Of a stretch of DNA of 64,000 nt, positions 32 through 29,869 are shown one piece after another. The stretch lies in contig CM049306.1 in assembly GCA_026874595.1 (NCBI GenBank), positions 58,100,019 through 58,164,018 of the forward strand. The letters are read 5' to 3'. A program made the translations under genes and the position numbers. The notes under the pieces were generated by a model, which worked only from the letters and a program-made list of their open reading frames with translations, made no database searches and was not told the DNA's origin. How positions within the stretch are numbered: position 1 is the stretch's first letter; each line of letters starts with the position of its first letter. Origin of the DNA: Sipunculus nudus. Its lineage: Eukaryota > Annelida > Sipuncula > Golfingiida > Sipunculidae.

Positions 32-3000
32 CTGAAAAAATAATAATAACAGGATTATGTATGTACATGTATTCCCTTATTTCACCAGATAAATGAACCA
101 AAAGTCAACAGACTGGTACGACTCTTCAAGACAAAAGGAATATCTACACAGTTACTCTGATTAATGCACAAGTTAATTTACAAATATCAATACATAGGTC
201 AGAGTTTTTCTCAATAATTGCCCCATACCTTCAACTGCTCAATGGTTTTCCCTGGCTTTCTAATCTAGTAAAGCTGAATAGTAAAAATATTTATGTTTGT
301 ATATTGAAAATTTGATTTTCAAATATTTTTTAAACTTAGTTTCCTTTTCTTTATTCAAAATGCTTGCTATGCCAGTGTTTCAGTACTGTTAATCTAATCC
401 ACTTGACATACACAAGCATTTAGTCCCCTAATACACTTTTATTTAGAGTAAAACTGATGAGTTGATCCTGAAACCACTACATCAAAATTAAGACAGAATG
501 GAGTATATTAAGGGCTGACTCATCAAGAATAAGAACCATTTTTTTTACTCAAAGCCTAAATCTAAATATTAATCTGACACTAAAACAAAACATTATTACA
601 GTGGAAGAAAACAGTGTCAGTTTGTTCTTTTAGTAGGATGTTCTCATTCAAAATCATTACTGTATCCAAAGTAATAATTACTGTGATGAAAACTCTCTGT
701 CAACAATGATGATCCACTGACCATCGGTTTAGGCGGCACAGAAATGGACTGATAATATTTTCATCATTATAATTTCTTGTTTTGATAGTTTATTAAGGAA
801 TTTATTTGAAACCTTACAGATTAAAGAGTTCATTAATGAAAACTGGTCTTGGGACATCACTTTATCAAGTGCAAGCTACTGGGTGTTAATTTTGTACAGA
901 ACTGTTTCAATTTGCTCTCTGCTGGAAAAGTTCCAATTTGATCTATACTTTTCCTATTGGAACAATAAAAATCACTAAAAAATTACATATATATATATAT
1001 ATACATTAGATAAATACCCACCTCTACAGAATGTTTGTAAAGCCTGATGTCCTCAATCTTAAACTCTTTCCATACAGGGGACGGCTGTCTAAGAATAAAC
1101 CTCATACCCACTATATTTGTCAGCTCAAATCTCAGCTGCAAAGAACAAAGAACATGTTAAATAATTAACACAAACTGGGGATGGTTGCCTTAGAATAAAC
1201 CTCAGACCCACCATATTGGTCAGCTCAAGCCTCAGCTGTAGAGAAAACATAAAATGTTCAATTCCATGCATACACAAACTGGGGATGGTTGCCTTAGACT
1301 AAGCTTCCACTCAAAGCTCAGCTGAAGTGAAAACAAATGTTAAATACCATACACAAACTTGGGATAGTTGCCGCAGAATAGACCTCAGATTCACTAAAAA
1401 GGGCAGCTCAAACCTCAGCTATAGAGAACAAACAAGGGGGCCATGGGTCACTGTGCTCAGCTGAAGTTGACCTTGAAGGTAAAAAAATTAAAATAATATC
1501 AAATGGAGAAAAAGTCTGAGAGGAAAAGGTAATATAGGCCATGGCTGGTTGACATGATTGGTTTGTATTGATGTGTAAGAAATTGTTGCAAATAATATTT
1601 TTTTACCAAAGCATGCATCTCCTAATGTTAAAATTAAAGCAGGTGACCAGTTTGTGAACATAAGATGTATATTATAACCATGATCATTGGTTGACTTTTT
1701 GATAAATTGTTGACAGTCCGATAGTTTACACATTTGTTAAATTGGATCTTTTTTTAATAATATATATTATTTGATATATGTTTTTTTTTATTTGATAAAA
1801 TCTATACATTTGAAATACAACTCATGTCCCCAGTCCACAGGTGCAAGGACTTGGGGGGGGGGGGGGGGGGTAGGAATGGAATGATGGGTGGTAACAATAG
1901 GATTTTCACTTAATTCAACCATGCTTACAGGATAAAGAAGTTCATTCACAATTACTTTATATTTAAACAAGTGACCCATGGGTCATGAAGCTCAGCTGAC
2001 TGGGAAGAGATTCGCAAAAGGAAATTTTATCATCTGAAAGGTAGTATATTCCCATTCAACTGAAGCATCAAACAGATTAACCAACAGGCCAAAATTGTGT
2101 CTGTATTTATATATCTCAAAAATAGAGAAAAAATGTGTAAACTTTAAAAAAATACAGGTGGCTCCACCAGTGTGCAGAAACTAATAAAAACACTTAATGG
2201 TCAATATCCATGCAAATAATCATAGTGATCTCTGCATTAGTTGTTCAGATACTCCAGCTTTTGTATCAAATTTTTTATTATTCTGAGGGATACTTTGGAG
2301 TCCTATAGCTTGAAGGATATGGGCAACAGAGACCTAATTTCAGGTTTCCACAGACACTTTTCATGGGCCTCCTTGCAACACAAGAATGAAGATTTTAGGT
2401 CCAGTTGTCACAATTTGTGCCACGTTAACAGATGACAGCATTGTTAAAGGTCTCAAAAATAGAGAAAAAAATTCGTAAAAAATCGAAAAATACAGGTGGC
2501 GCCAAAAATCATAACCATCAGTGATGTAGTTAATGAGATATTGAAGTTTTTGTATGAAATTTTTTACTATTCTTGGGGGTACTTTGGGGCCAAATAGCTC
2601 AAAGGATATGAGTAACAAAGACCTTATTTCTGGTTTCCATGGAGACTTTTCATAGGTATCTCACTTTGTCAAGAATGAAGATTCTAGGTCCAGTCTATAC
2701 GATTTGTGCCCTGTTAACAGATGTTCACATTTTTAAAGGTCTCAAAAATAGAGAAAACAATTTGAAAAGAATCGAAAATTACAGGTGGCGCCACCAGTCT
2801 GTAGAAACTGATGAAACATCTCATGATCAATATGTATGCCAAAAATCATGACCATCAGTGATGTAGTTAATGAAATATTGAAGTTTTTGTATGAAATTTT
2901 TTACTATTCTGGGGGGTACTTTGGGGCCCAATAGCTCAAAGGATTTGGGTAACAGAGACCTAATCTCTGGTTTCCAAGGAGATTTTTTATCGACCTCTCA

Positions 3001-3516
3001 GAATGTCAAGTTACAAGATTGTAAGTCCGGTGGTTATGATTTGTGCCAGGTTAACGGACAGACGGATAGACAGACAGACGGACGATCGCTATAGCTCAGC
3101 ATGACTGAAAGTCAGCTGAGCTAAAAAGGACAAACAGACTGGTAGACAAACAAAGCTGATAAAATATGAAGTTTCAATAATATCTTATTTATTTTATTAT
3201 ATCAAATCACATCTGCAATATTACACAACTGAATATATAAGTTGCTTTCAAGTTTCAGACCTGAATAGCTTTAATCAATCCACATACAGCATTCAACAGT
3301 GTTTATAGAAATAATTTCATAATTAATATATATTTAATGATAATGGAGAGATGATGGACAGACAGCTGATCACTTTATGTTCCATTTTCCTGAGGCAAGA
3401 ATATGTTTTAATTAAATTTTAATTTTTTCTTATCAAATTATTAAGTTAAATATATTTTACACATTTGCAATAAAAACTAATGTCCCAGTTCACAGGTGCA
3501 AAGGAATCAATGGCAG

Positions 3517-3547
<31 letters not shown>

Positions 3548-6500
3548 TGCGGGGTGACAGCATTTACAACACTTCTGCATATACATACACGGCAAACAAA
3601 GTATGATCTCCTATTCTGCTGAGGTAGGAAAATAATGAACAAATGTTTGTATTAGATCCTCATTCTTTTATCACATCAATTTTTTTTATGTTTAGTTAAT
3701 ATTTCTATACATTTCCAATATAACATATATATCTGAATCTAAAAGTTGATTTATAATTCTAAATTGCATCATCATTAATCTCTATCTTGTCACAGCATGC
3801 ATACAAATATATATGTTTATTTTTTACCAAATTAATATATCCTTTAAATTTGCAAACTAATAAATATCTGAAAATAATACTTGATTCAGATTTCACAATT
3901 TTTAATTGTGCCTTTATGTATCCATAATTTCCTTTATATTTTATAAATAGAGGCATACTTACGGGTCTTATTTTATTTTAATTGGTCAAAATAATTTAAA
4001 AGAAAATTTATTTCTTTAAAAATGCTACATTAACCCAACATGGCATCTTCCAGATTACTCCTTGAATTACTTTTTCAAGGAAAGTTTTAGTATATTGGAG
4101 TGGAAACAGCATTACAAGTAACTAATTCAGTGAACTTAATAAGAATTACTGCATAACAATCACTGGTGTGTAGGGTTGGCGTGGGGGGGGGGGGGGGGGG
4201 GGAGGGGGGGGGACCGAGGGGATGCTATGAGAATTACTGTACACCTGTCACAGCAGGGGATCTCCCCCAGTGACTGTAACAAATCAGGGACCCTGGCATA
4301 GCTGACTTCCAGTGACCAGCAGTGGGCGGCCTGCATCTGGATAAACAAAGTAACTACAATAGAGCCTAAATAAAAAAATTCAATAACTAGCCTAATTTTC
4401 AAGCTTTTATTTTCAAATTTCAGATTTAAAAAAATTAAATACTTATGTTTACATGCTGTGAAAATTAATTCAACAGTGCTCACATGAAAAAAACGTGCCA
4501 TGGTCAAAGACGGGCAAAATTTAAGGTACTGATTTTATTTTTATGCTAATAACTTAAAAAATTTACAAAATTTAGAAATAATTTTGGGTATACAATTGAA
4601 TCTTAATTAAACAAAGTCATATACATGGAAAAAAAATCTCTAGCTTCAAAAATTTTCATGTTTAGTGAGTAAATATTTTTCCTGATTTTTAACACAGTGC
4701 ATTATGTCCAGGCTCATAACTTCAAGAAATTACACTCAACGAACCTAATTTCTGGCATGTATATAGGAAATATATCAGAGAATAATTATGGTAAATATTA
4801 AGGAAAACAGATCAGTGGTTTTGATATAAGGCAGTCCTGAAGTGTGATAATAGGACTTTTATTGAAATTTGAGGTTTTTCCTTAATATCTCGAAGGAAGG
4901 AAGTCGCAGTGACCCAATTTTTGGTTTGGTTGGAGATCTTGGGGACATCTAACAGTATGCCAAATTTTGGATTCGTAGGTCTAACGGTTTCAAAACATGC
5001 CAGTTTAACGGACGGACGGACAGACAGACAGCATACGGACAAAGGACCACGACTATAGCTCAGATGACTTATAGTCAGCTGAGCTAAAAACCAGTTAAAA
5101 CCAGCTATTCACCTGCTTTATTGGTAGAAGGTGTTTCTGGCTAAGTACTCGGCATTAGGGCTGGAAGTCAGAGTAATACTTATCCAGTATTACAGTCCAA
5201 AATTTGGACAAAAGAATGTTTATGTATTCATGCATAATATCTGATTATCACTGTTAACTAATGGGCAGTTTTTTAATAATATTTTTGTTAGAGGTAACGG
5301 CCTCCATTTTTTTGGAATAATATTTTTTTTGAAATTAACAATAATAACTTAACTATGTATATGTTCATCTGCAGAATTCCATTCCAGACAGAGACATTGA
5401 CAGAGCAGTATTATATGCTTCTTCTCATTTTACATCCTGGTGTTACCCTGGCTACTGCCTCTTTGGGCCCTGGGTGCTTAATTGTCCACATTACTCAGTC
5501 ATATCACTGAAGAACCCCCAAAAGGCACACTCATGTGTGAGTGATACAAGGCTGTGGGGCAAAGTCTTCCCATTAAACATGCTGAGCGCTTACCCTGGGT
5601 GGGGGCCGACCTTGAAAAATCTCATCACCTCAGCTGAGATTCAAACTCATCATCTCCCAGCTTTGAGTCCTGTGCTCTACCCCTGAGCTACAGAAGCCTG
5701 TTCTAATGGGCAGTTTATATTTATTGATGACCATAGAGCTTTTGACTTTTGCAAGACATTATAAACATAATATATACATAATATATAGCTTATTTGGAAG
5801 TGACTTATTGGTTTATGAGTTTCATGCTTAGGAGTGGATTTCCACTCTATTCACCTGTGTTCCTTCATTGGAAGAAAGTAATGCTGTCACTAAGTGAAAT
5901 TTATACATTTTTAAAGCTGTTACTATGTAAAATTTATACATAAAACTGAAATTTAAGTTGTTATAGAATGTTGCCATGGCAACAATTACCTGAGTTGGTA
6001 ATGCCTTTTGAGTACTCATATCCAAAATTTTGTACCCTTTTCAGTTCTACTCTGCCCATATATTGATAAACTGTTGGTAATTCCTGCTGAAAAGGTTCTT
6101 ACAACTCCCCTGTGATGGAGAAACGACCATGTTTATATACAAGCAGTCACTGAACATGGTACAGCACTACATGTGCCACAGAAAAGGCATGTAACCAGAG
6201 GTGGTTGACTTCACATATGTGGAAGCTGTAAGGTCCCTAGTTGTTGGTGTTAAGAATAATTGAAGAAATGCAAGCTTTTGACATTTGTAAAAATCTGCAG
6301 CCAGTTGTTCGTGCTGGACCTTGAAAAGTATACCAAGGTCATCTATATTTGACCTTGATTTAGCCTTTCATATGGTGCAGCAATTGTGTGAATATGGTGA
6401 CTATGTTATTTTTTTTTCAAGTTACAGCATCAACACCATTTTGAACTGACAAACAGATGGCAAACAGACATTTCTTTATCCCTAGCTGTTTATTAGTAGC

Positions 6501-9500
6501 CCAAAGTAATCTTGGACAGAGAAGTATTGCAAAGATTGCAAAAAAAAAAAAAAACTCACTGAATATACTTCATCCAACATTTTAACTCAAAGACAATAGA
6601 TCTTTTAATCTTAATGTTAAGAACTTTTGAATATATTTTGATAACTTCATCTTGAAAGAGTGAGTAAATCTGACCTGTTTCTTTGTGATGGTGAAGTAAT
6701 CCTCACTCCCAGTCTCACAGTGGGCATCTGGCATCAGCTGCTTCCTCTTCAGGCATGTCTGCCATTTTGGATCAACTGCAAGATGAATGGTTTTTATTTA
6801 CAGTGACACATATAACCAGACTATTAAAACTATGTCATCTTGTTGAGTAGGTAGGTAAAAATGCACAACTGAAATGGTTCAAGAACCGCAAGAATCTGCT
6901 GATAAAAAATAAGTTGTCTCAGGAGCCTAAACTAAGTCTGACACAAGTGATTTAATTGTGCGAATCATTTGTTATATATCAAATATGTTGAAAAATATGT
7001 AAAAAAAAACAAAGAAGGGATGTGATTTAATGGTAAATCATATTCTTTTAAATTAATTTTTTTCTGGTGCAAATTTTCTATCTATGTAAGTATAATAATA
7101 GAGATGACAATTATAAACATGTTAATTAACCTGAGTGATATCATAATCACAAGCTTATGATTGGACATGATAGAAACACAAACTACAAATCCCAATAAAC
7201 CTAATTACTAAGTTCTATATACTGCATGACTGGCTAGTCCAGTAAGCTGCAGTTGGTATCCTCTTAAGTCTTGTCATAGACAGGGATTTGTATCAGAAAT
7301 ATTTTCTCTGAATTCTTTGGGGACAGTCATGGAGAAGGACTTGCATGTGGGATGTTTTCTCTGAATAAGGATTTGTATGCGAGACACTTTCTCTGAACTC
7401 TTCTTGGGGGACATTAATGGACAAGGATTTACATGTGGGATACTTTCTCTGAACTCCTCTTGGAGGATAGCCATGTCCAGGGAGTTGTGTGGGGGGATGC
7501 CTGATTATCCCACATGAGTTAGAGGTGTTTTGCAACATGTGTCTGAGATTTTAAAGGTGTTTATTTCCTTCCTGACATTGGTATGTGGTAAACAAATATT
7601 TAAGAGATTAAAATAACATACTTATAGATCCCAAAATCAGTGTCCAGTCCTTGAATCAAATCATTACAGATATCTAAAAGAGGGCTAATTTACAATGGGA
7701 AGCACAAATTATAGAATTTTCCAAAATGTCAGAAGGAGCTAGGCTGCACCCTCATTTATGCATCCTTGGAAAACCTATGTATTCAGGATGGATGTAAGAA
7801 ATTTGAAAATGTCTAATTCTTCAAACCTCTGTCCAGTTATTATGAAACTAGTATTTTCTTTGTTTATTTACTCATTAAAGTATCCCATTAGTTTTTGAGA
7901 TGAACAAACCAATTTATTCACTCTACACTTAGCATTATCATTCTTATATTTTCACTTCTTACTTCTTTCAGGCAGTGAAAAAATAAAAGAATAGAAGTTT
8001 TCATGCCAAGAAATTGTGAAGTGCAAGTTTTTTTCAAAAGAAAAAGGCATTTGATTCTAGCAGTGATTTGTTCTAAAACTTGAATTTCTGAAGAAAACTA
8101 TAGAATTAGTATGTTAGATAATACTGTAAAAGTAATAATTAAATTTATAATACAGCAGAAAAAGTCTCTCATCATAATTTCAGGATGAAATATGAAAAAT
8201 GGACATGGAACAATATTGAGACAAAATGTCAACAAGATAAAATAGGGGCAGATGCAAATGATGAAATTATTTGTTTCATGCAAACCTGCCTGAAGTATAG
8301 TTTGGTAACATTATAAAGTGTGCATGACACACATAGGTCAAGCTTTATTCAGTGAGTGGCTCTATTGAAAGTTACATAAAGATACCTACAATTCCAATTA
8401 AAAAGCTAGCCAATTTAAAAGCAGCTTGAACAATCCTTGATATATCAGCTGTCTGCATATGATAATGGCAAGTGATCTGAAGGCTGTGAAAGCAGCATCC
8501 AAGAGCACATGTGATGATATTTTTATTGATAATATCAGGGATGTCGGCTCCACTGATGAAATATTATCCAGGTTCTTTTTAATTTTTTTCTCATGATGAG
8601 AGGAACAGGTTTTATAGGAACTTCATTCTGAGAAGGCAAAAAGCATTTATAAACATTTTCTTTCTGCCTGAAATTTGACCGCTTTGTTTAAGCAATATTT
8701 ACATACACAAACCTGTCAGGTAAAAATAATGATCAGTATGATAAGTATGTCTTATGTTATTTCATTATTACCGATATTACAATATTATCTCACAGGTGTC
8801 ATATGGGTCATGATGCTCAGCTGAATGATATATCATAGTATACTGATTATACAGGCTTAACAGGCCTTCCTTCATGTTGCCTTCATTTAGGTGTGTAATT
8901 TATTCTATAAAGGCCATATAGGAAATAACTTGACATAATTTAAATAAATCATTTGTATACTAGGCAAAATATAAAGAAAATGGAAAAAATATAAGCTTAA
9001 TAAAAAAAATATAAGCTTTTATCTTTTATCTAAAAATTCATATACTGTTCAGATTTTCAGCTGATCAATGTTTCTTTAGCTTAAAAGCCACCAATGTTTG
9101 GAACTTAGAAAATATCTAACCCTTGCATCACTTAAAACGAATTAAAAACATTTTTGGCAGGCTTTTTGTCATTAAAATGTATTTGCTTTATCGCAAGTGA
9201 ATTAGCATCTCAATAAATACATGTGTGAAAGAGAAATGAAGGGGGCACAGGGAGAGGTATAGGGGTTAGGTTTTCCTTCAAGAAATTGTCCTCTGTAAGT
9301 GGGTATGATCACGTTCCTGTCTTAGTGCTGTAAGTCTGACTATCAGAGATAATGGTGCTATATAAAAACTACATATTATTATTATTATTATTATTATAAT
9401 TACTAATATTATTATTATTATCAACTGTATAGTTGCTTAAAATGTTCTAATGCACAAGGCTCTTTAAAAATAAATTGAAAATAACTTGAAAAAATGAGGT

Positions 9501-12500
9501 CAATGACCAGGTTTGAAAAAAAAGTTAAACATGAACTTGCCCCATCATACACAGGCTCATAACAATAACAATATTTACTAAACATGGTCTGGTCAGTCAA
9601 CCTATTGATGTGATCACAGCTGTTAAGTTATAGTAAAAAAAAATATTAAAATGCAAATTAATTCCTTTCAATATAGAAATTATCCATATAGTTTCCCTAA
9701 AAGAAAGACCTTAATAAAGCAATAATCCTTTTAAACACATATGATGCAGTTATATTCACACATAAAAAATATCATAATACAAACATGGTTAATCAAAAGA
9801 TTTAGTCAAAATAATGAAATAATTAGTACAGCTGTGGAGTCCTAAGATGTGCTTTGATGTTAAATTTATAAAAACCAGGAGCCACCACCAGTAAAGATAT
9901 CTTATTCAAATATCTTTTTTAGATCAAGTCTGGAATCTGCAAAAACAACACAATTACGATTATTAAAAAATCTCTGTATTATTAAGGGAAGATAGGAATC
10001 ATAGGAATCATGCAGTTCTGATGAAAAACTAAGCATGCTAAGAAGAGCAAATTCAGTCCTTATTAACAAGAAAATCAGACTGAGGTGATCGTTTTCCTCC
10101 ACCTGGGAAGCACTCACCTTTCCCTTTTCTTATCCCTATGAAGATGCAATGTGAATAAAAAAACAAGTCAACATCTCATATAGAATAACTCTGCTCAAGG
10201 CCATAGAAATCTCTTTCTCCTTTTAGAAAAATATGTTAAAACTTTTGTGAAACAAAAAAATGTTATAATATAAAAAATTCTTGATACATTATGTATTCCA
10301 TTTTATATACAAGTGTAAAAAAATATGAAAACCTGGGAAGGAATACTCTCACCATGTGATAACCTGAAAACAATTTTTTAAAACTGATATACAAGCAGTA
10401 AATGATTCATATGATAAAATTATTATCATTTTTAGATGTACAAAACTCCAAAATATTTCTACTCTAGAAATTTTTATAACAAAAAAGAAGCAATGATGTT
10501 CACTTTATCAGTGGAATAAATCATGAACTCTTGCAGTGAAACTGTCAACCACTGCCACCAAAAATTTGTTATATACTGAGAGTGCAGATTCAAGTCCAAC
10601 CTTAGGAATTACTATTGGTTTTCAAACATGGCACCAAAGTTAAGATTCCAAAGCCATGCTGACAGCATTTTTCAAACACCATTCAAACTCTCTGATCTTT
10701 TAAATTGTATCTGCATGCTCATTAAAACTTTTAGTTAGTTACAAATTTGTTTTGGGGCAATGGCAGGGGGTTTACGGGAGTAGAGGTTGTCATAGCAATA
10801 CCTAGCAATCATGATTGACTGCCCCATAGTCATACTATCAAGCCTCTGGCAGCTATGCCTTAAGAGACCTTGACTCATCAAGCTGTTCAAGTGTCTAGTT
10901 CATGAATAATGAACAAGGCAACTGAACCGATCAAATGACTCACATTTATTTTACGTGCTTATCAGAGCATGTCTGGTGGGATTTTAAAGGTTCAGCATTG
11001 CTGGGAAGGGCATCTAGAATCTGATCAATCAAATAAAGCCATATAAACCTGTTCCATTCCTGTTGCATGTGCTCTTGTCCAGATGGCATGTGATCAGTGA
11101 ATTGTTTAAAATTTTTTAATTGGATTTGATTGGTAGTTGTGAAATTTGCTCAAAAATTTGTAGGCTTGATAATTATTTATTAAATAGTTGCATGAGGAGC
11201 AAGGTCTCTGAATAAATAGGTGCCAGAGGCTTGATAATATGAAAATAGTCAGCTATAAAATATCATCATAGAATGTAATAAACCAGTTTCTAAGGGTGTG
11301 ACATCCTCTGTGCACAGGCCTACATGTCTATAAGTATGCCAACATGTTGGTACTTTGTTGACAATGTTTCATGAAATATTCACCTGGCAAGATAAGTAAG
11401 ATGAATAATGGGGTCATTATATAACTGACTGCTCAGCATGTCTTATTTACAAAGCTTTGTTTTAGTATTTAAGACTTTCATTTAAGATCTTCTTGCACAC
11501 ATCACAAGCCTGACCAAAAAAGAGGACTGTTTAGTGTCTGCTAAGAAAGTAATTAGGTAGTTACTTATAAGTAAGTAGTTGTATGAATGTGCCTGCACAA
11601 CCTTTGACTAGATCACAAGGATGTAACAGCAAAGAACATAAAGTTACTTCTGTCTCTGTAAATATGAGCTTAAGTTAACATTGATCACCAAGATCTACAC
11701 TGGAACATTAGTGAGGGATTAATATTAGATTATCAGGTATTCAACTTTACACAGTCAAATTTTCCAGATACAATATTTTTTTTTTAAACCACAAGAACTT
11801 TGATACAAAAATTCAATTCAATTATGATAAGAAAAAAATTGACAGCAGGATGGTCAGAGAAATCTCCAGAAGCAAACATTCATATGTCTTTCTGTTTGAT
11901 CTTGGAAAATAAAAGCCAAGAACATGTTCTAATTTGCACTATATCTAAAATAATATTAAACAAGCTTAAGGTAGAAAATAGATTTTGAATTTAATACACT
12001 TAAATGACCATATGGTATCTTTGTCAATTAACTTTCAAAAACTTATAACCAATAGTGCCTAAATGAATGAGCTCAATTCACCAGTCAGACATTTAAACAC
12101 AAGCTTTACAGATGCTTGCACTCACTAAGTGTGCAAGAAATACATATCATACCTTAAGTTCTGACAGGGGTTGATTGGTTCAAGCATTATTCTGCACAGA
12201 GTACTCACCATCTGGGCGTGATTCTTTAAACTGCACTCTGACAGACAACCAGGCAGTGTAGAAGTTCTTGAAGTGAATCTCACCAACCTTCAAAGACAAT
12301 TCTGATTGAAATGAGCAGCCAGCTCTTATTATGGCACATATGCTACATTCATCAAGTATATAATATAGAGTACATGAAGAAATCCTTCTCTAATTTGTTG
12401 ATGAGGATGCCGTCATCCCAAGAGCATTCCTATGGGTTTTACTTGGAGAATATGGGTTTATTGATCACTGTCACATGGTCTTTGTGTGTGTCTGTCAGGA

Positions 12501-13396
12501 TGGTTACAAGTAGTAGTTGAGAACAGTTAGAAAGATAAGTTTATATTACAACCTAAAAATATTTCATTTAAAATGTGATGCCAGAAGCTGTCTATAATGA
12601 TTAAAAATACACTATTTGATTACAAGTGTTGTTCATCATTTTATACATCAGCTCAGCCATGTCACACCATCAAACACCCTCTGCCGATAAATTCCCACCT
12701 TGACATTGACCTTGGAGTACTTTTCTCTTGTATTTCTGTGCCCTTTCCATACCCTGAATCATTTATATTTACTTTAAAGACTGTCAGACTGTTCCATAAT
12801 TTAGCTTTCTGCATGAAGTTCTTAACTAAATCAAAACACAGGCTGACTTTTCCTGACTTTCACAAATATTCTAAAAATTCCATGAGTTTTGATGAAATTC
12901 CCTGATATTTCATATATTCTGAAAATAATTTTCCCTGATTTTTTCCTGACCCTGTGATATTTTGAACCATTTTGGAAGCATGCTGGAAATGATTATCACC
13001 TCTAGTTGGACCCTTGGTCATGATTTTTCCTGGGTAAGATACACATGTGAGAAGTGGTTTGGCGAATACAAGCCCTGCACTAAATGACATCACAGTTCAG
13101 TCTGCTTAATGGCTGCTATAGACTAAAGTGTACGCGTACAGTTGAAAAAAAAATGATTTGTGAAGTGGAAAATATAGTAAATATATAATATAAGAAATGT
13201 AGATGTACATAAAAATCTTCATTTATAGCCTGCTGACAAGACTCAATAAACTTACCTCTACAAAGTAGACATTTGGAAAAGTGACGTCAATAATTGAGCA
13301 GCCTGTGCTGAAATCTGAGCGTTGATCACCTATCTTGATCCCGACGGCAGGTTTGATTGTACAGTTAATTGGCTGTGGTCCTGCTTCAGCTGCCAT
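1..13396 (-). CDS. NICN1: Nicolin-1 (NICN1) homologue, gene span, 3' end off the window
   Basis: The gene span on the minus strand contains five coding exons: 13396-13256, 12287-12209, 6775-6675, 1135-1022 and 31-1. Joined, they give 466 nt (155 codons plus one base) without a stop. Recognition is by residue-level similarity to vertebrate nicolin-1: IDVTFPNV and FKNFYTAWLSVRV in exons 1-2, KWQTCLKRKQLMPDAH in exon 3 and RFILRQPSPVWKEF in exon 4. The human protein is about 213 residues, so roughly 55 C-terminal residues lie left of position 1. Nicolin-1 is known as a subunit (PGs5) co-purifying with the TTLL1 tubulin polyglutamylase complex, which adds glutamate side chains to axonemal and neuronal microtubules; it has no known catalytic motif. 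Introns are long for such a small gene (about 1.0, 5.5, 5.4 and 1.0 kb) because of repeats. The 5' UTR and promoter are not identified; an AG acceptor-like GATTCAG lies 6 bases before the ATG, so a non-coding first exon farther right is possible. Confidence 0.93.
985..1004. repeat. Short (TA)n tract in NICN1 intron 4
   Basis: A short AT dinucleotide run. The rest of intron 4 (32-1021) shows nothing else recognisable. Confidence 0.8.
1022..1135 (-). CDS. NICN1: NICN1 coding exon 4
   Basis: The exon is 114 bp, 38 codons, phase 0 at both ends. The acceptor is TTCTTTGCAG and the donor GTGGGT. It begins LRFELTNIVGMRFILRQPSP and continues VWKEFKIEDIRLYKHSVE. The ILRQPSP motif and the following W..F..E pattern are diagnostic of nicolin-1. 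The first 20 codons are repeated, diverged but open, three more times immediately upstream in the gene (see 1176-1235, 1280-1321 and 1359-1418). Confidence 0.96.
1176..1235 (-). pseudogene. Extra copy b of the NICN1 exon-4 5' half
   Basis: A 60-nt block follows a very good acceptor (GTTTTCTCTACAG). It translates as LRLELTNMVGLRFILRQPSP, 17 of 20 residues identical to exon 4, with no stop. By my reading there are about 11 base differences over 21 codons including the next one, of which 8 are synonymous and 3 conservative. Directly after the homologous block comes GTTTGTGT, a possible but weak donor; the second half of exon 4 is missing. It could be a cassette exon in the same phase (0-0) or a decaying duplicate; the codon pattern argues against long neutral decay. 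Confidence 0.8.
1280..1321 (-). pseudogene. Extra copy c of the NICN1 exon-4 5' half, 18-nt in-frame deletion
   Basis: After an acceptor (TTGTTTTCACTTCAG) 14 codons are open: LSFEWKLSLRQPSP. Relative to the other copies six codons are missing, which keeps the frame, and the LRQPSP end is retained. It is followed by the same GTTTGTGT sequence as copies b and d. Confidence 0.7.
1359..1418 (-). pseudogene. Extra copy d of the NICN1 exon-4 5' half
   Basis: This 60-nt block follows the acceptor GTTTGTTCTCTATAG and reads LRFELPFLVNLRSILRQLSQ without a stop. It is the most diverged of the copies (ILRQPSP has become ILRQLSQ) but has no frame-breaking indel. It is followed by GTTTGTGT. The spacing between acceptors in the four-copy array is 100, 86 and 97 bp. 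Confidence 0.7.
1853..1870. repeat. Poly-G run (18 G)
   Basis: A homopolymer G tract in the repeat family shared with 3535-3547 and 27746-27776; each follows similar flanking sequence (cag-tgcaagga or similar). Confidence 0.9.
1978..3125. mobile_element. Modular element with 13-bp inverted ends and three internal tandem modules
   Basis: The ends carry perfect inverted copies of AGCTCAGCTGACT (1989-2001) and AGTCAGCTGAGCT (3110-3122). Between them are three tandem modules beginning CTCAAAAATAGAG at 2115, 2452 and 2741, i.e. units of 337, 289 and about 335 bp, the middle one lacking about 45 bp. Each has a core AGGTGGCGCCACC or a variant. The 3' end contains the hairpin TGACT-gaa-AGTCA followed by GCTGAGCTAA, which resembles a non-autonomous Helitron or Helentron end (hairpin then CTRR). 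It has no coding capacity. Confidence 0.7.
4183..4212. repeat. Poly-G run (20 G, A, 9 G)
   Basis: The tract sits at the position homologous to the G-run at 28534-28545; both are followed by '..atgagaat..acagcagggg'. Confidence 0.9.
5371..5701 (-). mobile_element. tRNA-derived SINE, family 1, copy 1
   Basis: Read on the minus strand the element begins ACAGGCTTCTGTAGCTCAGG, with a tRNA A-box (TAGCTCAGGGGTAGAGC) and a B-box-like GTTTGAATCTC. It continues into a GGTCGGCCCCCACCCAGGGT body and ends near GGAATTCTGC. It matches 17867-18170 and 49230-49474 along this length. It is non-coding; the apparent ORF inside is incidental. Confidence 0.85.
5702..6674. other. NICN1 intron 3, no recognised feature
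   Basis: AT-rich intron sequence. Positions 6185-6250 (ggtggttgacttcacatatg, tgtggaagctgtaaggtcc) weakly resemble the repeat at 41870-42260. A run of 14 A lies near 6540. Nothing else is seen. Confidence 0.5.
6675..6775 (-). CDS. NICN1: NICN1 coding exon 3
   Basis: The exon is 101 bp with a TTGCAG acceptor and a GTCAGA donor. Its first two bases complete the codon split from exon 2 (valine), giving VDPKWQTCLKRKQLMPDAH and then CETGSEDYFTITKKQ. The W, TCL and LMPD..H positions match the human nicolin segment KWVTCLRDYCLMPDPH. It ends in phase 0. Confidence 0.95.
7270..7490. repeat. Degenerate ~62-bp tandem repeat
   Basis: About four imperfect units contain 'ttctctgaa(c/t)tctt', 'ggggaca..catgg..aagga' and '(t/c)atgtgggata'. 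The second unit is shortened. Two overlapping short ORFs on the minus strand (EEFRESIPHVNP-like) are products of the repeat. Confidence 0.8.
7491..8797. other. NICN1 intron 2, no recognised feature
   Basis: AT-rich intron sequence; I see no exon, RNA gene or repeat with a partner in the window. Confidence 0.5.
8798..8824 (+). repeat. Isolated left end of the GCTCAGCTGA element family
   Basis: ATGGGTCATGATGCTCAGCT followed by GA matches the left ends at 1441, 1978 and 27631. No matching right end is found nearby, so this is a truncated or diverged copy. Confidence 0.6.
9240..9425 (+). mobile_element. Probable SINE or LINE 3' end with (ATT)n tail
   Basis: The sequence 'aatggtgctatataaaaacta' leads into an (ATT)n tract (9377-9421). 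A GTGCTATATAAA motif before an ATT tail is a common 3' end of metazoan SINEs and CR1/RTE-like LINEs. The family was not identified. Confidence 0.5.
10830..11242. repeat. Long imperfect inverted repeat in NICN1 intron 2
   Basis: The left arm 10830-10872 (TATCAAGCCTCTGGCA...GAGACCTTG) pairs with the right arm 11200-11242 (CAAGGTCTC...TGCCAGAGGCTTGATA). The arms are about 43 bp long with roughly 80% complementarity and are separated by about 330 bp. A third AGGCTTGATAA lies at 11162. It may be a MITE or hairpin element; no target-site duplication was recognised. Confidence 0.7.
12209..12287 (-). CDS. NICN1: NICN1 coding exon 2
   Basis: The exon is 79 bp: 26 codons plus one base. It encodes VGEIHFKNFYTAWLSVRVQ and continues to RPD. 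It starts after TTTGAAG and ends before GTGAGT. An alternative acceptor 14 bases upstream (AATCAG) was rejected because only the chosen one keeps phase 0 with exon 1 and gives a gap-free alignment with vertebrate nicolin (EITFKNYYTAFLSIRV). Confidence 0.93.
13256..13396 (-). CDS. NICN1: NICN1 coding exon 1
   Basis: There are 47 codons, starting MAAEAGPQPINCTIKPAVG and ending PNVYFVE, followed by a GTAAGT donor. The ATG is in good context (AGGATGG). The end of the exon (SIIDVTFPNV) matches the conserved nicolin N-terminal strand VIDVTFPSV. The exon ends in phase 0, exactly compatible with exon 2. The start was chosen because it is the first ATG and because the preceding bases look like an intron acceptor. 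Confidence 0.93.
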
Positions 13397-13734: not shown

Positions 13735-15410
13735 AAAAAGAAAGGTAACTCTAGATGACATGTAAATAGACTAATCTGAAAGAAAGGCAGCTACAGGACA
13801 TGCACCTAAGAAAACAAGGAACCAGAAACACAAATACTCCCCCACCCCATGCATAACTCCAGTGTGGGTATTTTCTGTGACATGTATTCAACTAGCTCCA
13901 AAGAAAACTTGCATATGATTTGAAGGCTAAGTGTTCTAATTTACTGACCTATCAGAACAAAAGTGAAAAAGACCATTTTTTTGTGTGCAGAAAGTTGTTT
14001 AACAGAGATGGCCCTACCTGCAGGTGATAATCACATGTCAGTCATGTGTTGAATAAGTCTGTAAAATTTGGTGAAGAAAGCAGCAAGGGTCTTAGAGACA
14101 TGTGGTAAAAGAATGGGGGGTGGGGGGGGGGGGGTGGGTGGACAGCTAGACTTCCGCATGCCAAGACTCACAGACAGTAGGATGCAGATCATTTTAGTAG
14201 TCCTTCCTCTTATGACAGGGGACTTACAATTATCATGTTTCCCCTAATAATGGAGGCACCAACATCTGAACAGCAAAGTATGAAAATGTTGACCTCTGAC
14301 CTTGAACTTTGACCCTCTGACCCAAAAATCTAAAAATCACACATCAAACATGATCAACATGTATACACAATTTGGTGTTAAAAGCTGCAGTGGTTCCTTA
14401 GGTATATAACAGCTTTCACAACATACACAGAAACATGTAAAATCAAGAATTTTTGCCATCAGCAAACTTTGAAAGTCCCATGAAAACATTTTGAAAGAAA
14501 TCCAGTTCAACCTTACATTCATTTAAAATCCCTTGGCCTAAGGAATTGTTGTATATGTTTTGAAGGATCAGGTGTTCTTATTTATTCACTGATCAGTAAA
14601 AAAGCGAAAAAGACCCTTTAGGATCGTGAAAAGTAGGGTAACAGTAGGTGGCGCCACCTGCAGGTCATAATCACATGCCAGTCATCTCAATAATATGTAC
14701 AAAAATTTGGGGAAGAAAGCTGCAAGTGTTTTGGAGATATTTGGTAGAGAAGAAGGCAGAACGGATGGAAAGACAGATGGACAGATGGAAAGTTCCAGAC
14801 AATTTTAGTAGTCCCTCCTCCTACGGCGGGGAACTAATAAACAGTGTCTTATATGAAAGAAAGGCTACTCTGATAGAGGAACATTATAAAACAATGTCTG
14901 ATTTGAAAGAAAATACAGCTTTTGGAGAGAGGCATTATAAGATTAGTATCTTATCTGAAAGAAGGGCAGCTCTAGAAAAGGAACATCATAAACATTGTCT
15001 GATATGTAAATAAAGAAACTCCATGAGAGTAACACAGGGAAGTATTTGATATAAGAGTAAGGTAACTAGGGCAGGGAAATACGGTAAGAATGGCACGTGT
15101 CTGATCTGAAAGAAAGGCAACTCTAGGGCAGGGATATAAGAATAGTGTCTGATCTGAAAGAAAGGCAACTCTAGGAGACAGACATAAGAATGGTGTGTGA
15201 TATGTAAGAAAGTATTTAAATTAAACTCTAGGAGAAGGATATATAAGAGTGTGTGATCTGAAAGAAGGGCAACTCAAGAAAAGGAATTAAAGAAACAGTG
15301 TCTGATAAGAAAATGAAGAAATTTTAGGAGAGGGACATAAAATCTGAAGGAAATGCAAATTAATCTACAAGAGGAACGTAAGAATAGTATCAGATCTTTC
15401 CTGCAAGAAC
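13735..15410. repeat. Degenerate ~50-60 bp minisatellite interrupted by a module pair
   Basis: Units of the form 'gtctgatctgaaagaaaggcaactctagg..gga(c/a)ataagaata' occur at 13735-13805 and again from about 14850 to 15410 (at least nine units). Between them are two copies of an unrelated module (about 13890-14230 and 14530-14840) ending 'attttagtagtcc(c/t)tcctc'. The 121-codon ORF at 14648-15013 is a by-product of the repeat (S-E-R-R-A-A-L-E-like periodicity), not a gene. Confidence 0.75.
13890..14840. mobile_element. Two-module repeat with AGGTGGCGCCACCT core
   Basis: The two modules share 'tttgaaggct/atca', 'gtgaaaaagacc', 'cctgcaggt(g/c)ataatcacatg' and 'aattttagtagtcc'. The second has the perfect palindrome AGGTGGCGCCACCT (14646-14659). 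The first contains a G-run (14122-14134). The module layout is like the elements at 1978-3125 and 20240-21393. Confidence 0.6.
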
Positions 15411-22740: not shown

Positions 22741-22790
22741 CCCTAGTTAGCTGTAGCTAGAGCTCAGTATGACCACAAGTCAGCTAAGCT
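22741..22790. repeat. Fragment of the CAGCTGAG element right end
   Basis: 'agctcagtatgaccacaagt cagctaagct' matches the right-end hairpin of the elements ending at 3125, 5090 and 29398, with substitutions. Confidence 0.6.
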
Positions 22791-22831
22791 GATATGGATC
22801 CTGAATCCAGTAAATCCACAAATGTGAATCG

Positions 22832-25520: not shown

Positions 25521-27630
25521 AATAAATGAACAGAGAGGCAAGCTTTTGGTAATCAGGGAAAAAATATTCTTTCCTAAATGTGAAAGGAATCTCCTCAGAT
25601 ACAGGAAGGACTTTAGTTCATTATCTTTTTATTTGCAGGCCACAAACTACAGCCAAATATATCCAATTTAATCATAAACAATGTCCTACATCTCACAATG
25701 TTGGATTAACAAAAGGACTATACACATTTCAGGAGGAACCTCTGCACAAACTCAAAATCCCTGGTCACCTTGTTTTCTTCAAGACATATAAAGGAAATCA
25801 GAGGACATAATATGCATCAGGAACAGTCCTGAAGTTTATTCCTTCCTTTGGATAAATGGCCCACTTTATGTCTTAAAAAACTATGATGCAGCTGTCAAAA
25901 TGCACCAGTAACCTCCATAAATCAGGGATGCACCTCTCCTTTAGGTTAATGATTTCTAGGTCCTGCCAGGTTTGCAAATTCTGTGGCATCAAAACTGCTC
26001 AGGATTTAAAAAAGAGCAAGGCAGCAGAAAATTACAGACAATCAGTACTGGTTGTAGCAAGGTGGTGACAGGAGAAATTCAATATACAGAAAAGATGACA
26101 AGGTGGTACAAGTGTGTTTGTTGTTAATAATATGCTTGACAGGTGGTGACATCTGTAGGCAATTTTAAATGTTGTCAATAAAACAAAATGAAACGGATGA
26201 ACGACTATTCTTTTCCTGGAACAAAATAAAAGTTCTGGAGTTAAGGTGGATCTTGATGTATTATGTATATGATACTAAAAACTCCATGAAAACAAACATT
26301 TCCTGGCTTCAGCACTATGTACACCTAATTAATACAGTCATAGAACCTGGAACCCTATTCCTCCACTCAGTCTGGGCACTTCTGTGATGCGTCCAAAAAT
26401 ACCACACTTGATATACATATATAATATGTGAGTGAAATGTTTCAGGTGTGCTTTCTGGAGATGAAAAAAAGTTGCAGTACCTTGTGTTTTCACTCATCCT
26501 TGTTGAACATCTATTATATACACGGCAAAAACACTCTATCATGGTAGAGGCAGCTGTGCTAGCTCTCCTCGACAAATAAAAGTCACCAGCTGCACAGAGT
26601 TGGCCATTCAGAATTGTTCTTCATATTCATAGCCTGCATGTATACAACACATCTGCTTTTTATATCGTCTGGTTTCTTTGAGGAGATTAAGAAGTGGTAA
26701 AGGCTGCCGGCTGTAGCAATAGATTGCCTATATATGGTGAATGCTGGTAGGCATCAAATCACTGTAATCGTTGGCTTGTTGTTGTAATGTATTAAACAGT
26801 AATGTTAATACATGGACTGTGTATCATCTGGCAAATAGTGAAATGAACTGATTCATGATACAGCATGGCAATATGCAAATCAGTTTGCAAACATTCTGTC
26901 CTACATAATACACAGCAAGAAATAATCACTGACCCCTAGCTTTCAAGCAGCTCCTTGGACACAGTTAACTACTGGCTGCCCATTATTAGATTAAGTTCAG
27001 TATATTAAGAGATTTTTTAAATTCTTTGCAGTTTCTATATCTGTTAGTTTAGATAAAGTTTCTCAAAAGATTTGCAAACTAGCAAATGTTGCAGTGCATG
27101 ATTGAATCAGAATCAGACCTCAAACAAAGATCATGGACTTTCAAGAGTTTAGAAGTTTGTTACACCCATATTAATAATGTTGCCATGAGTAGTTAATCAG
27201 CAAATTATCAGCAATTTCATTAGCAATGGTCAGTGAATAAGATCATTATAATACGTGTACATAAATTAATCGGCATCAATATGTAGCAGTATGTAGCAGA
27301 GTTCTTCACAGACCCTACAAGAATGCCACATTTTATTGCCTTGAGTTTAGTCAGTGAAATGTTTTATGAATAAACTGTGTAATTTAAAGCCACTTTTAGC
27401 CATGTATAGACCTTATGACATGAAGGTATTATCCTTATAAATCTTATACCAGTATGAACTCGTTTACATGATATATTGAATGACAGTTGCTCATTTGATA
27501 TACTGAATATTTGATCACAAATTGCTTTTAAAGGCACCTCATTAAGCCCCAAGCAGGGAGTGAATGCAGGGATCATAATTTATTTAAAGGGTGCTTTTCT
27601 GATATCTGACACCTTTAAATAAAAAAAAGG
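23554..27630. other. Intergenic, mostly featureless
   Basis: I see only a 21-bp perfect duplication (24769-24789 and 24790-24810), an (AT)n microsatellite at 25475-25516, and no credible exon. Confidence 0.5.
25475..25516. repeat. (AT)21 microsatellite
   Basis: A pure AT dinucleotide run of 42 bp. Confidence 0.97.
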
Positions 27631-27744
27631 ACTCATGGGTCACGGCGCTCAGCTGATTGTGACAGTTATAACTGCATCACCATAGATTTTTTAAAGTTGC
27701 AATAAAAATACTATCCTCAGTGCTCAGGAACTAGAGCTCTATGA

Positions 27745-27777
<33 letters not shown>

Positions 27778-29398
27778 AGAAGAGTTACAGCACTTTTAGA
27801 TAGAAATACAGAATACGGAATTAAATGCAATGGTGCTAACAGAGACTGGTGGGAGTCACAGCACCTCTGCATATAAGGATAAAAATTTAATTTGAATGAA
27901 ATTTTTTTCAATATTTAAAAACAGGCAGAGAGATTGAAAACAAAGCAAATAACTTTACTTTGTCTACTGAGACAGGAAAATAATGAACAAATATTTGCAT
28001 TAGATTATTTTTTTTCTTTTGTTAAGTCATTTTTTTTTTTAAGTTTATAAATTTTACTATATATTTACAGTATATCATATATGTCTGAATATTTAAATTG
28101 ATTCACAAATCTTAACTGCATAAACATTTATACTTAATTTAGTCAGGTAACATCACATTATGCACAGAGATATATTTTTTTTTTATAAAATATATTTTAT
28201 TAAATTTGTAAAGCAAAAATTATATGAATATAACACTCCAGAATTCACAATTTAAAATTGAACCTTTATTTATCCATGAATTTTTTATATATTATCAAAT
28301 TATGCCTGGGTCAAATTATATTTTGTTTAATTATTTAAAAGGAAATAATTTCTTAAAAATGCTACTTCAGAACAAGGTGGCATCTCTTGGATTACTTCTT
28401 GAATTAATATTACAAGAAAAGTTGTGCACATTGGGTCAAAAACAGCTTTACATTTAAAAAAATTCAGTTGATAATAACAAACCATGCATAGGAATATAAT
28501 TGGTGATGGTGGTGGTGGTCTGGGGAAGGGGAAGGGGGGGGGGGGTGGTTAGGGTAGGGCCCATGAGAATAAGTGTATGTTTATTACAGCAGGGGTGTTC
28601 TGCCAGTGCAGCATCACTAATAAGGTTACCTAGGCAAGGCTGTAGTGCGCATGGGTGGGGTCTTGGATATACAAAATGCAAATACATTAGAGCATCTGAA
28701 AAACTTCAATAATTAGAATAAATTTTAAGCTTTTACTTTAAAATTTCAGAATTCAACAGATTAAATCCACATGTATCCTGGCTTTGAAAAATAAATTAAA
28801 TATACTTACGAGAAATAAACATGCCATGGTCAAATTTGGGCAAAATTTAAGGTACCAATTTTATATTTTTGCTAATATTTTTTAAAAAATTAAAAGATTT
28901 TGATCTAATTTTGGGTATAAAATTAAATTTTGATTAATTAAAGTTGTATTACTGGAAAAAAGTCCCTACCTTTAACACTTTTGGTCTTAAGTGACCAAAT
29001 ATTTTTCCTGATTTTTTACAAAGTGCAATATGTTTGGGCCCATAACTTTGTCAAATTATATGATGCAGGTCTAATTTCTGGCATGTACATAGGAACTGTA
29101 AAGAGGAATATATGGTAAATATGAGGAAAAACAGATGAGTGGTTTGATATTTAAGGCAGTCCTGAAGTGTGAAAATAGGTTTTTAATAAAAAATTGTGGT
29201 TTTTCCTTAATTTCTCAAAATCCCAAAGACACAGTTTTTGGCTTGGTAGGAGATCTTGAGGACATCTAACATTATGCCAAATTTTGGATTCCTAGGGTTT
29301 ACAGTTTCAAAAGGTGCCACATCTATACGGATGGACAGACAGATGACGGACAATGGACCATTACTATAGATAAGATGACTTATAGTCAGCTGAGCTAA
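27631..29398. mobile_element. CAGCTGAG-ended element, ~1.77 kb, non-coding
   Basis: The left end is ACTCATGGGTCACGGCGCTC followed by AGCTGA (GCTCAGCTGA at 27647-27656). The right end is ATGACTTATAGTCAGCTGAG followed by CT (AGTCAGCTGAGCT at 29384-29396). The terminal 10 bp are inverted repeats. The 3' hairpin TGACT-tat-AGTCA is followed by GCTGAGCTAA. The interior matches 3470-5090 throughout. It holds the longest G-run of the window (27746-27776). No ORF suggests a transposase. Confidence 0.75.
27746..27776. repeat. Poly-G run (31 G)
   Basis: Thirty-one consecutive G, the longest homopolymer in the window; it lies inside the element 27631-29398. Confidence 0.95.
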
Positions 29399-29869
29399 AA
29401 CCATTTGAAACATTTATAAAAATATGTTAAAAAGTTTGGATCCCACCACACACAGCCTGTTAGTTTTGCTTATGTCCAAGTGTTTATTACACTTTGGGGC
29501 TGGACAAAATAATCCAAACGCATTAAATGAAGAGTCAGAAGAACCAGAGTTGTGCAAGGAGCATTTTGGAACTATTGTCCTTTCAAATTCTGAACAACTG
29601 CAAGCAACCACTTTGGGTTACATGATTTTCTGTTTGTCAACAATGTTGTGTTTACAAACAACTCATAGATAAATAAGCTCCTACCTCCATCACAGAGACA
29701 TTATAGGACTTTTCTTAACAGAAATTACCTAGAGTTAAGTAAAACATTCATCAAATAAGCCAGAAATCACATAAATTCTATAGACAAGGCAGATGAATTG
29801 CTGGCTTTAACTTCTTTCTAAATGATCCTGACAAACTCAAGCAGGAAAGGCCATTGTTTACTTAAAGGT

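Follow-up and report, generated by a model that had tools for sequence, protein, structure and literature searches.

NICN1 (nicolin-1) is a subunit of the tubulin polyglutamylase complex. In the 64-kb stretch of DNA analyzed here (the window), intron 3 of the NICN1 gene carries, directly upstream of exon 4, three degenerate partial tandem copies in the same orientation, each of which consists of the exon 4 acceptor and the 5′ part of exon 4 (about the first 20 codons). The question raised by this locus is whether these copies serve as alternative, mutually exclusive or poison exons, or whether they are a duplication in decay, all of which had been considered in an earlier note on this DNA.

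The first four exons of NICN1 were located on the minus strand of the window, and their joins are in phase:

13256..13396, minus strand, NICN1 exon 1, placed by homology; start codon at 13396, donor GTAAGT
12209..12287, minus strand, NICN1 exon 2, placed by homology; donor GTGAGT
6675..6775, minus strand, NICN1 exon 3, placed by homology; donor GTCAGA, phase 0 at its end
1022..1135, minus strand, functional exon 4 (a) of NICN1; length 114 nt, phase 0-0 with donor GTGGGT

The extent of exon 4 is given here as corrected, from 1135 to 1022, and the remainder of NICN1 beyond this exon was not found in the window. The 145-residue product of exons 1–4 matched 21 homologues at 42–57% identity (top match 56%, E 3.5e-49). 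The 15 best NICN1 proteins fetched were 52–57% identical, and the named ones came from annelids, a chiton, a nemertean, and bivalves. The partial protein gave no match at E up to 1 either in Pfam or in a PDB sequence search, and Rfam at gathering thresholds gave nothing in the window. The homology across all four exons, together with the presence in exon 4 of the family-invariant residues Q17, W22, and F25, identifies the gene, as judged by sequence comparison, as an invertebrate NICN1.

The copies in intron 3, and a segment that probably continues one of them, have the following positions:

1176..1235, minus strand, copy b; 60 nt, intact-looking acceptor at 1236, then a weak GTTTGT
1280..1321, minus strand, copy c; 42 nt, acceptor at 1322, then a weak GTTTGT
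1253..1273, minus strand, probable continuation of copy c after its GTTTGT (1279–1274); 15 of 21 bases equal to exon 4 codons 21–27, in line
1359..1418, minus strand, copy d; 60 nt, the most degenerate copy, acceptor at 1419, then a weak GTTTGT

The analysis confirmed that three copies lie upstream of the real exon 4 at the positions that had been claimed for them, on the minus strand, and the same was true of the three acceptors and of the GTTTGTGT that follows every copy. Tandem Repeats Finder reported a period of 100 nt at 1077–1302 (2.2 copies, score 291), and self-BLAST of 1022–1440 matched the other units of the array at E-values from 8e-8 to 7e-34, which together place the repeat far beyond chance. 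Elsewhere in the 64 kb no further copies of the array were found by self-BLAST (best other match E 0.076). With exon-derived tandem copies in the neighboring intron and in the same orientation, the array is a tandem, though partial, exon duplication. Such duplications are common in animals according to PMC9013439, which also cites an older survey that put the share of animal genes with tandemly duplicated exons at about 10%. The NICN1 array resembles the duplications described there in that exon copies with their acceptor adjoin the parent exon, in the same orientation and in the neighboring intron. It is different in that its copies comprise no more than the 5′ part of the exon, have weak donors, and have diverged without detectable coding constraint. 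In the one literature collection searched, no report was found that links nicolin-1/NICN1 with exon duplication.

Other repeats were also observed in the window. Bordering the array on its upstream side, positions 1430..1464 hold a fragment that is 80% similar to 1965–1999, a dispersed-repeat end, and within it 1442–1464 matches 27634–27656 at 91%; the 1430–1464 fragment may have taken part in making the exon-copy array. The region 1965–3122 contains a unit of about 221 nt in three imperfect copies, at spacings of 289 and 337, and has 13-nt inverted ends at 1989–2001 and 3110–3122. Parts of this region recur across the window (4998–5090, 8792–8827, 22756–22798, 27613–27662, and 29333–29400), which suggests a dispersed element. 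Farther away, at 14989–15273 on the minus strand, there is a reading frame with a tandemly repeated LELPFFQIRH-like motif.

The comparison of the copies with exon 4 showed that copy b differs from it at 10 of 60 sites, of which 7 are synonymous and 3 nonsynonymous. The bias toward synonymous differences that had been noted for this copy is therefore real, while the count of 8 in 11 given for it is obtained only when codon 21 is included. In copy c, 12 nt without a clean alignment take the place of a 30-nt stretch of the exon, and the segments that follow the copies vary in length (37 nt after d, 44 nt after c, and 40 nt after b), so that the earlier description of an 18-nt indel as the only one was too generous. 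There is no in-frame stop in any of the three copies, and their exon-called parts stay in frame. The lack of stops was rejected as an argument for function, because under neutral decay the expectation for three stop-free copies is 0.79 (in this estimate copy c was represented by the initial 30 nt of the shared state, carrying one change).

The homology to exon 4 seems to extend beyond the GTTTGT sequence after at least one of the copies. After copy c, the 15 of 21 bases that are in line with exon 4 codons 21–27 were matched or exceeded in 4 of 20,000 shuffles, at a single offset that was picked post hoc from the alignment, and in free local alignment the score of this segment was reached by 144 of 5000 shuffles. 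Given the post hoc offset and the latter value, the support for exon homology after copy c is moderate. For the segments that follow d and b, homology to the same codons was not shown in ungapped comparison (9/21 and 4/21, respectively), and in gapped free local alignment their scores were reached by 202 and 3697 of 5000 shuffles. Because exon homology seems to continue past GTTTGT at least after c, the copies probably do not stop precisely at codon 20. The view that they represent the first 20 codons of exon 4 holds as far as the copying of the 5′ part is concerned, but after c the homology seems to run to about codon 27. On this moderate evidence, which comes from one copy, GTTTGT may not be a donor but an insertion inside the copied exon that b, c, and d have in common.

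Selection was analyzed using a codon model in which exon 4 (a) and copies b, c, and d were placed together on a single unrooted tree (20 codon columns, kappa fixed at 2). The omega value was 0.036 on the path that links exon 4 with the common state of the copies (2 delta lnL 14.2, p 1.6e-4 vs 1). Among the copies omega was 3.8 (2 delta lnL 2.8 vs 1, not significant), and it was 1.26 (2 delta lnL 0.07, not significant) when codons 6–8 and 10 were set aside because of a cluster of changes in copy d. The ratios of synonymous to nonsynonymous differences were 2.5:10.5 between b and d, 0:2 between b and c, and 2:3 between c and d. Thus, dN/dS, which the earlier note had named as a measure of constraint on the copies relative to exon 4, is low on the exon 4 path but not below 1 among the copies, and with these omega values purifying selection on the copies was not detected in a comparison of low power. 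At seven sites, six of them synonymous, b and d have the same base and exon 4 has another (codons 2, 6, 11, 16, 17, 18, and 20); copy c agrees with the shared base at the four sites that are comparable and unchanged in c, while codon 15 differs from exon 4 in every one of the copies. The shared states of b and d and the branch omegas thus place the synonymous bias on the path of which the functional exon is part. Among the copies no coding constraint is detectable, at the low power of 20 codon columns and four sequences.

The branch lengths, when left free, were uneven, with 0.61 on the exon 4 path, 0.08–0.22 for d, and 0.01–0.03 for b and c. Under a strict clock, a constrained ancestor of the copies was better than a neutral one by 2.2 log units for all codons (lnL −166.7 vs −168.9) or by 2.4 log units without the cluster (lnL −120.6 vs −122.9), with equal numbers of parameters in the two models. 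The free-branch models fit better (lnL −162.6 and −119.0, respectively), which makes the strict clock itself doubtful. The gain could mean that the ancestor of the copies was a working exon for a time, or alternatively that synonymous sites in exon 4 evolved faster.

The splice signals of the copies were compared with those of the real exons and with the background of the window. Of 17 acceptor positions, 13 are pyrimidines in b, 12 in c, and 14 in d, as compared with 13 in exon 4 and 9 each in exons 2 and 3; among the 3494 YAG sites in the window, 306 reach 12 pyrimidines, 121 reach 13, and 35 reach 14. The donors were scored by matches to the simple consensus MAG|GTRAGT. Those after the copies have 5/9 (b and c) or 6/9 (d) matches, while the four real donors have 7–8. 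Of all 6947 GTs in the window, as many as 3153 have at least 5 matches and 1223 at least 6, and the GTTTGT donors therefore score at background. For the possible weak donor of phase 0-0 cassettes that had been proposed, a formal GT is there and the phase fits, while the score gives it no distinction. With splicing at GTTTGT, the four products tried (b, c, and d singly, and all three together, each followed by exon 4) stay open. If an acceptor were used without a donor, the resulting read-through exons would have 214 nt (b), 300 nt (c), or 397 nt (d), and stops would be met after 36, 29, and 35 residues, respectively. The acceptors look competent, and hence they could be used as decoys.

The consequences of the copies for the protein were considered in the context of the NICN1 family. 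A profile search gave 288 matches, and the best 120 of these 288 NICN1 proteins were used, many of which are gene predictions in which rare isoforms could be missed. The exon 4 residues Q17, W22, and F25 are identical in all 120. The copies, within the limits defined here, contain neither W22 nor F25, although a W still appears when copy d is read through past GTTTGT. Copy d has residues seen in none of the 120 proteins at six of 20 positions (P6, F7, N10, S13, L18, and Q20), and it breaks P18 and P20. In copy b, M8 is found in 0/120 and L3 in 2/120 proteins, while L11 is the commonest state (79/120). In the exon 3/4 region, LMP and QPSP are separated by 34 residues in 119 proteins and by 35 in one, which indicates that none of the 120 has an added exon 4 segment; accordingly, no exon-4-like insertion was found in the best 120 of the 288. 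In the exon 1/2 stretch, 37 of the 120 proteins have a length unlike this NICN1, and several of them are isoforms of one species. The Mya and Dreissena NICN1 isoforms offer a parallel in the same gene, with an annotated 20-residue in-frame insertion at the exon 1/2 junction, but this insertion differs from the copies described here in place and sequence, and it is unrelated to exon 4. In NICN1 intron 1 (12288–13255), no counterpart of the mollusc 20-residue insertion was seen by eye among the listed reading frames of at least 30 residues.

These data bear on whether the copies could work as cassette exons, alternative or mutually exclusive, in which the acceptor and the GTTTGT donor would add or swap 14–20 residues in NICN1. 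In PMC5740500, mutually exclusive exons are recognized by similarity, frame, and similar length (up to 60 nt difference), and then by junction reads. The copies are like such exons in being tandem, similar in sequence, of the same 0-0 phase, and stop-free, with open reading through all four cassette products tried; moreover b and d, which are 54 nt shorter than exon 4, are within the tolerance given there, while c, which is 72 nt shorter, is outside it. They are unlike such exons in that they are shorter than the parent exon, have donors that match at background, and show no purifying selection. Additionally, swapped-in copies would deprive the protein of W22 and F25, and copy d also of P18 and P20, and 119 of the 120 proteins have no insertion in the exon 3/4 stretch, with a single residue in the remaining one. 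Hence, use as cassette exons is extremely improbable. The second functional possibility is that the copies are decoy or poison sites, whose acceptors would compete with exon 4, so that early stops in the read-through would lower NICN1 mRNA via nonsense-mediated decay. The pyrimidine content of the acceptors and the positions of the read-through stops agree with this, and it is compatible with decay of the array, as a by-effect; on the other hand, such acceptors are expected of any little-decayed duplicate of a functional acceptor, and neither they nor the stops bear a sign of selection. Of the early stops that a poison exon would bring, the three read-through products have one each and the four cassette products tried have none. 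Such a decoy role is considered quite unlikely.

It is also conceivable, though unlikely, that the copies descend from a former second exon 4, a constrained alternative exon that was later truncated, amplified, and lost. Such a history would precede the present decay and is compatible with it, and it would agree with the better fit of the constrained-ancestor clock models and with the extension of homology after copy c to about codon 27. However, the fit depends on about eight substitutions and on an assumed clock, itself worse than free branches, and small numbers or faster synonymous change in exon 4 would look alike. A combination of these ideas, in which two constrained forms of exon 4 once existed and the second one, truncated, amplified, and dying, now has acceptors that divert some transcripts to decay and so tune the level of the polyglutamylase subunit, is very unlikely. 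Taken together, the omega values, the donors, the missing W22 and F25, and the lack of an insertion in 120 proteins speak against the alternative and mutually exclusive exons of the earlier note. Among the readings offered in that note, poison exons included, only the decaying duplication is supported by the data.

The preferred reading, to which we assign a probability of about 0.86, is that the array arose long ago by local tandem duplication of the intron 3/exon 4 border, was amplified and is decaying, leaving intronic pseudo-exons that are spliced out. In this sequence of events, about 100 nt, running from the last part of intron 3 into the 5′ part of exon 4, would have been duplicated in tandem. 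One diverged copy, with GTTTGT and the seven substitutions common to the copies relative to exon 4, would later have been amplified to give b, c, and d, which since then would have decayed free of coding constraint. In normal splicing, exon 3 would be joined to exon 4 and the copies removed. The copies, their relationship, the absence of detectable constraint among them, their weak donors, and the early stops that follow from use of an acceptor alone are observed directly, while the order of events and the splicing-out of the copies are what we infer from them. The confinement of the units of about 100 nt to the array within the window is in favor of the decay reading. Several observations count against it, namely the good polypyrimidine tracts at all three acceptors, the preserved frame, the W in the read-through of d, and the strict-clock gain of 2.2–2.4 log units for a constrained ancestor, which suggests that the history may include a working copy.

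This small case makes clear that exon copies may be in frame, free of stops, and equipped with good acceptors and still be misleading. Their synonymous bias relative to the parent exon comes from constraint along a path to which the real exon belongs, and not from constraint on the copies of today. If the acceptors were used, the array would be a handy example of a partial exon duplication making decoy splice sites.
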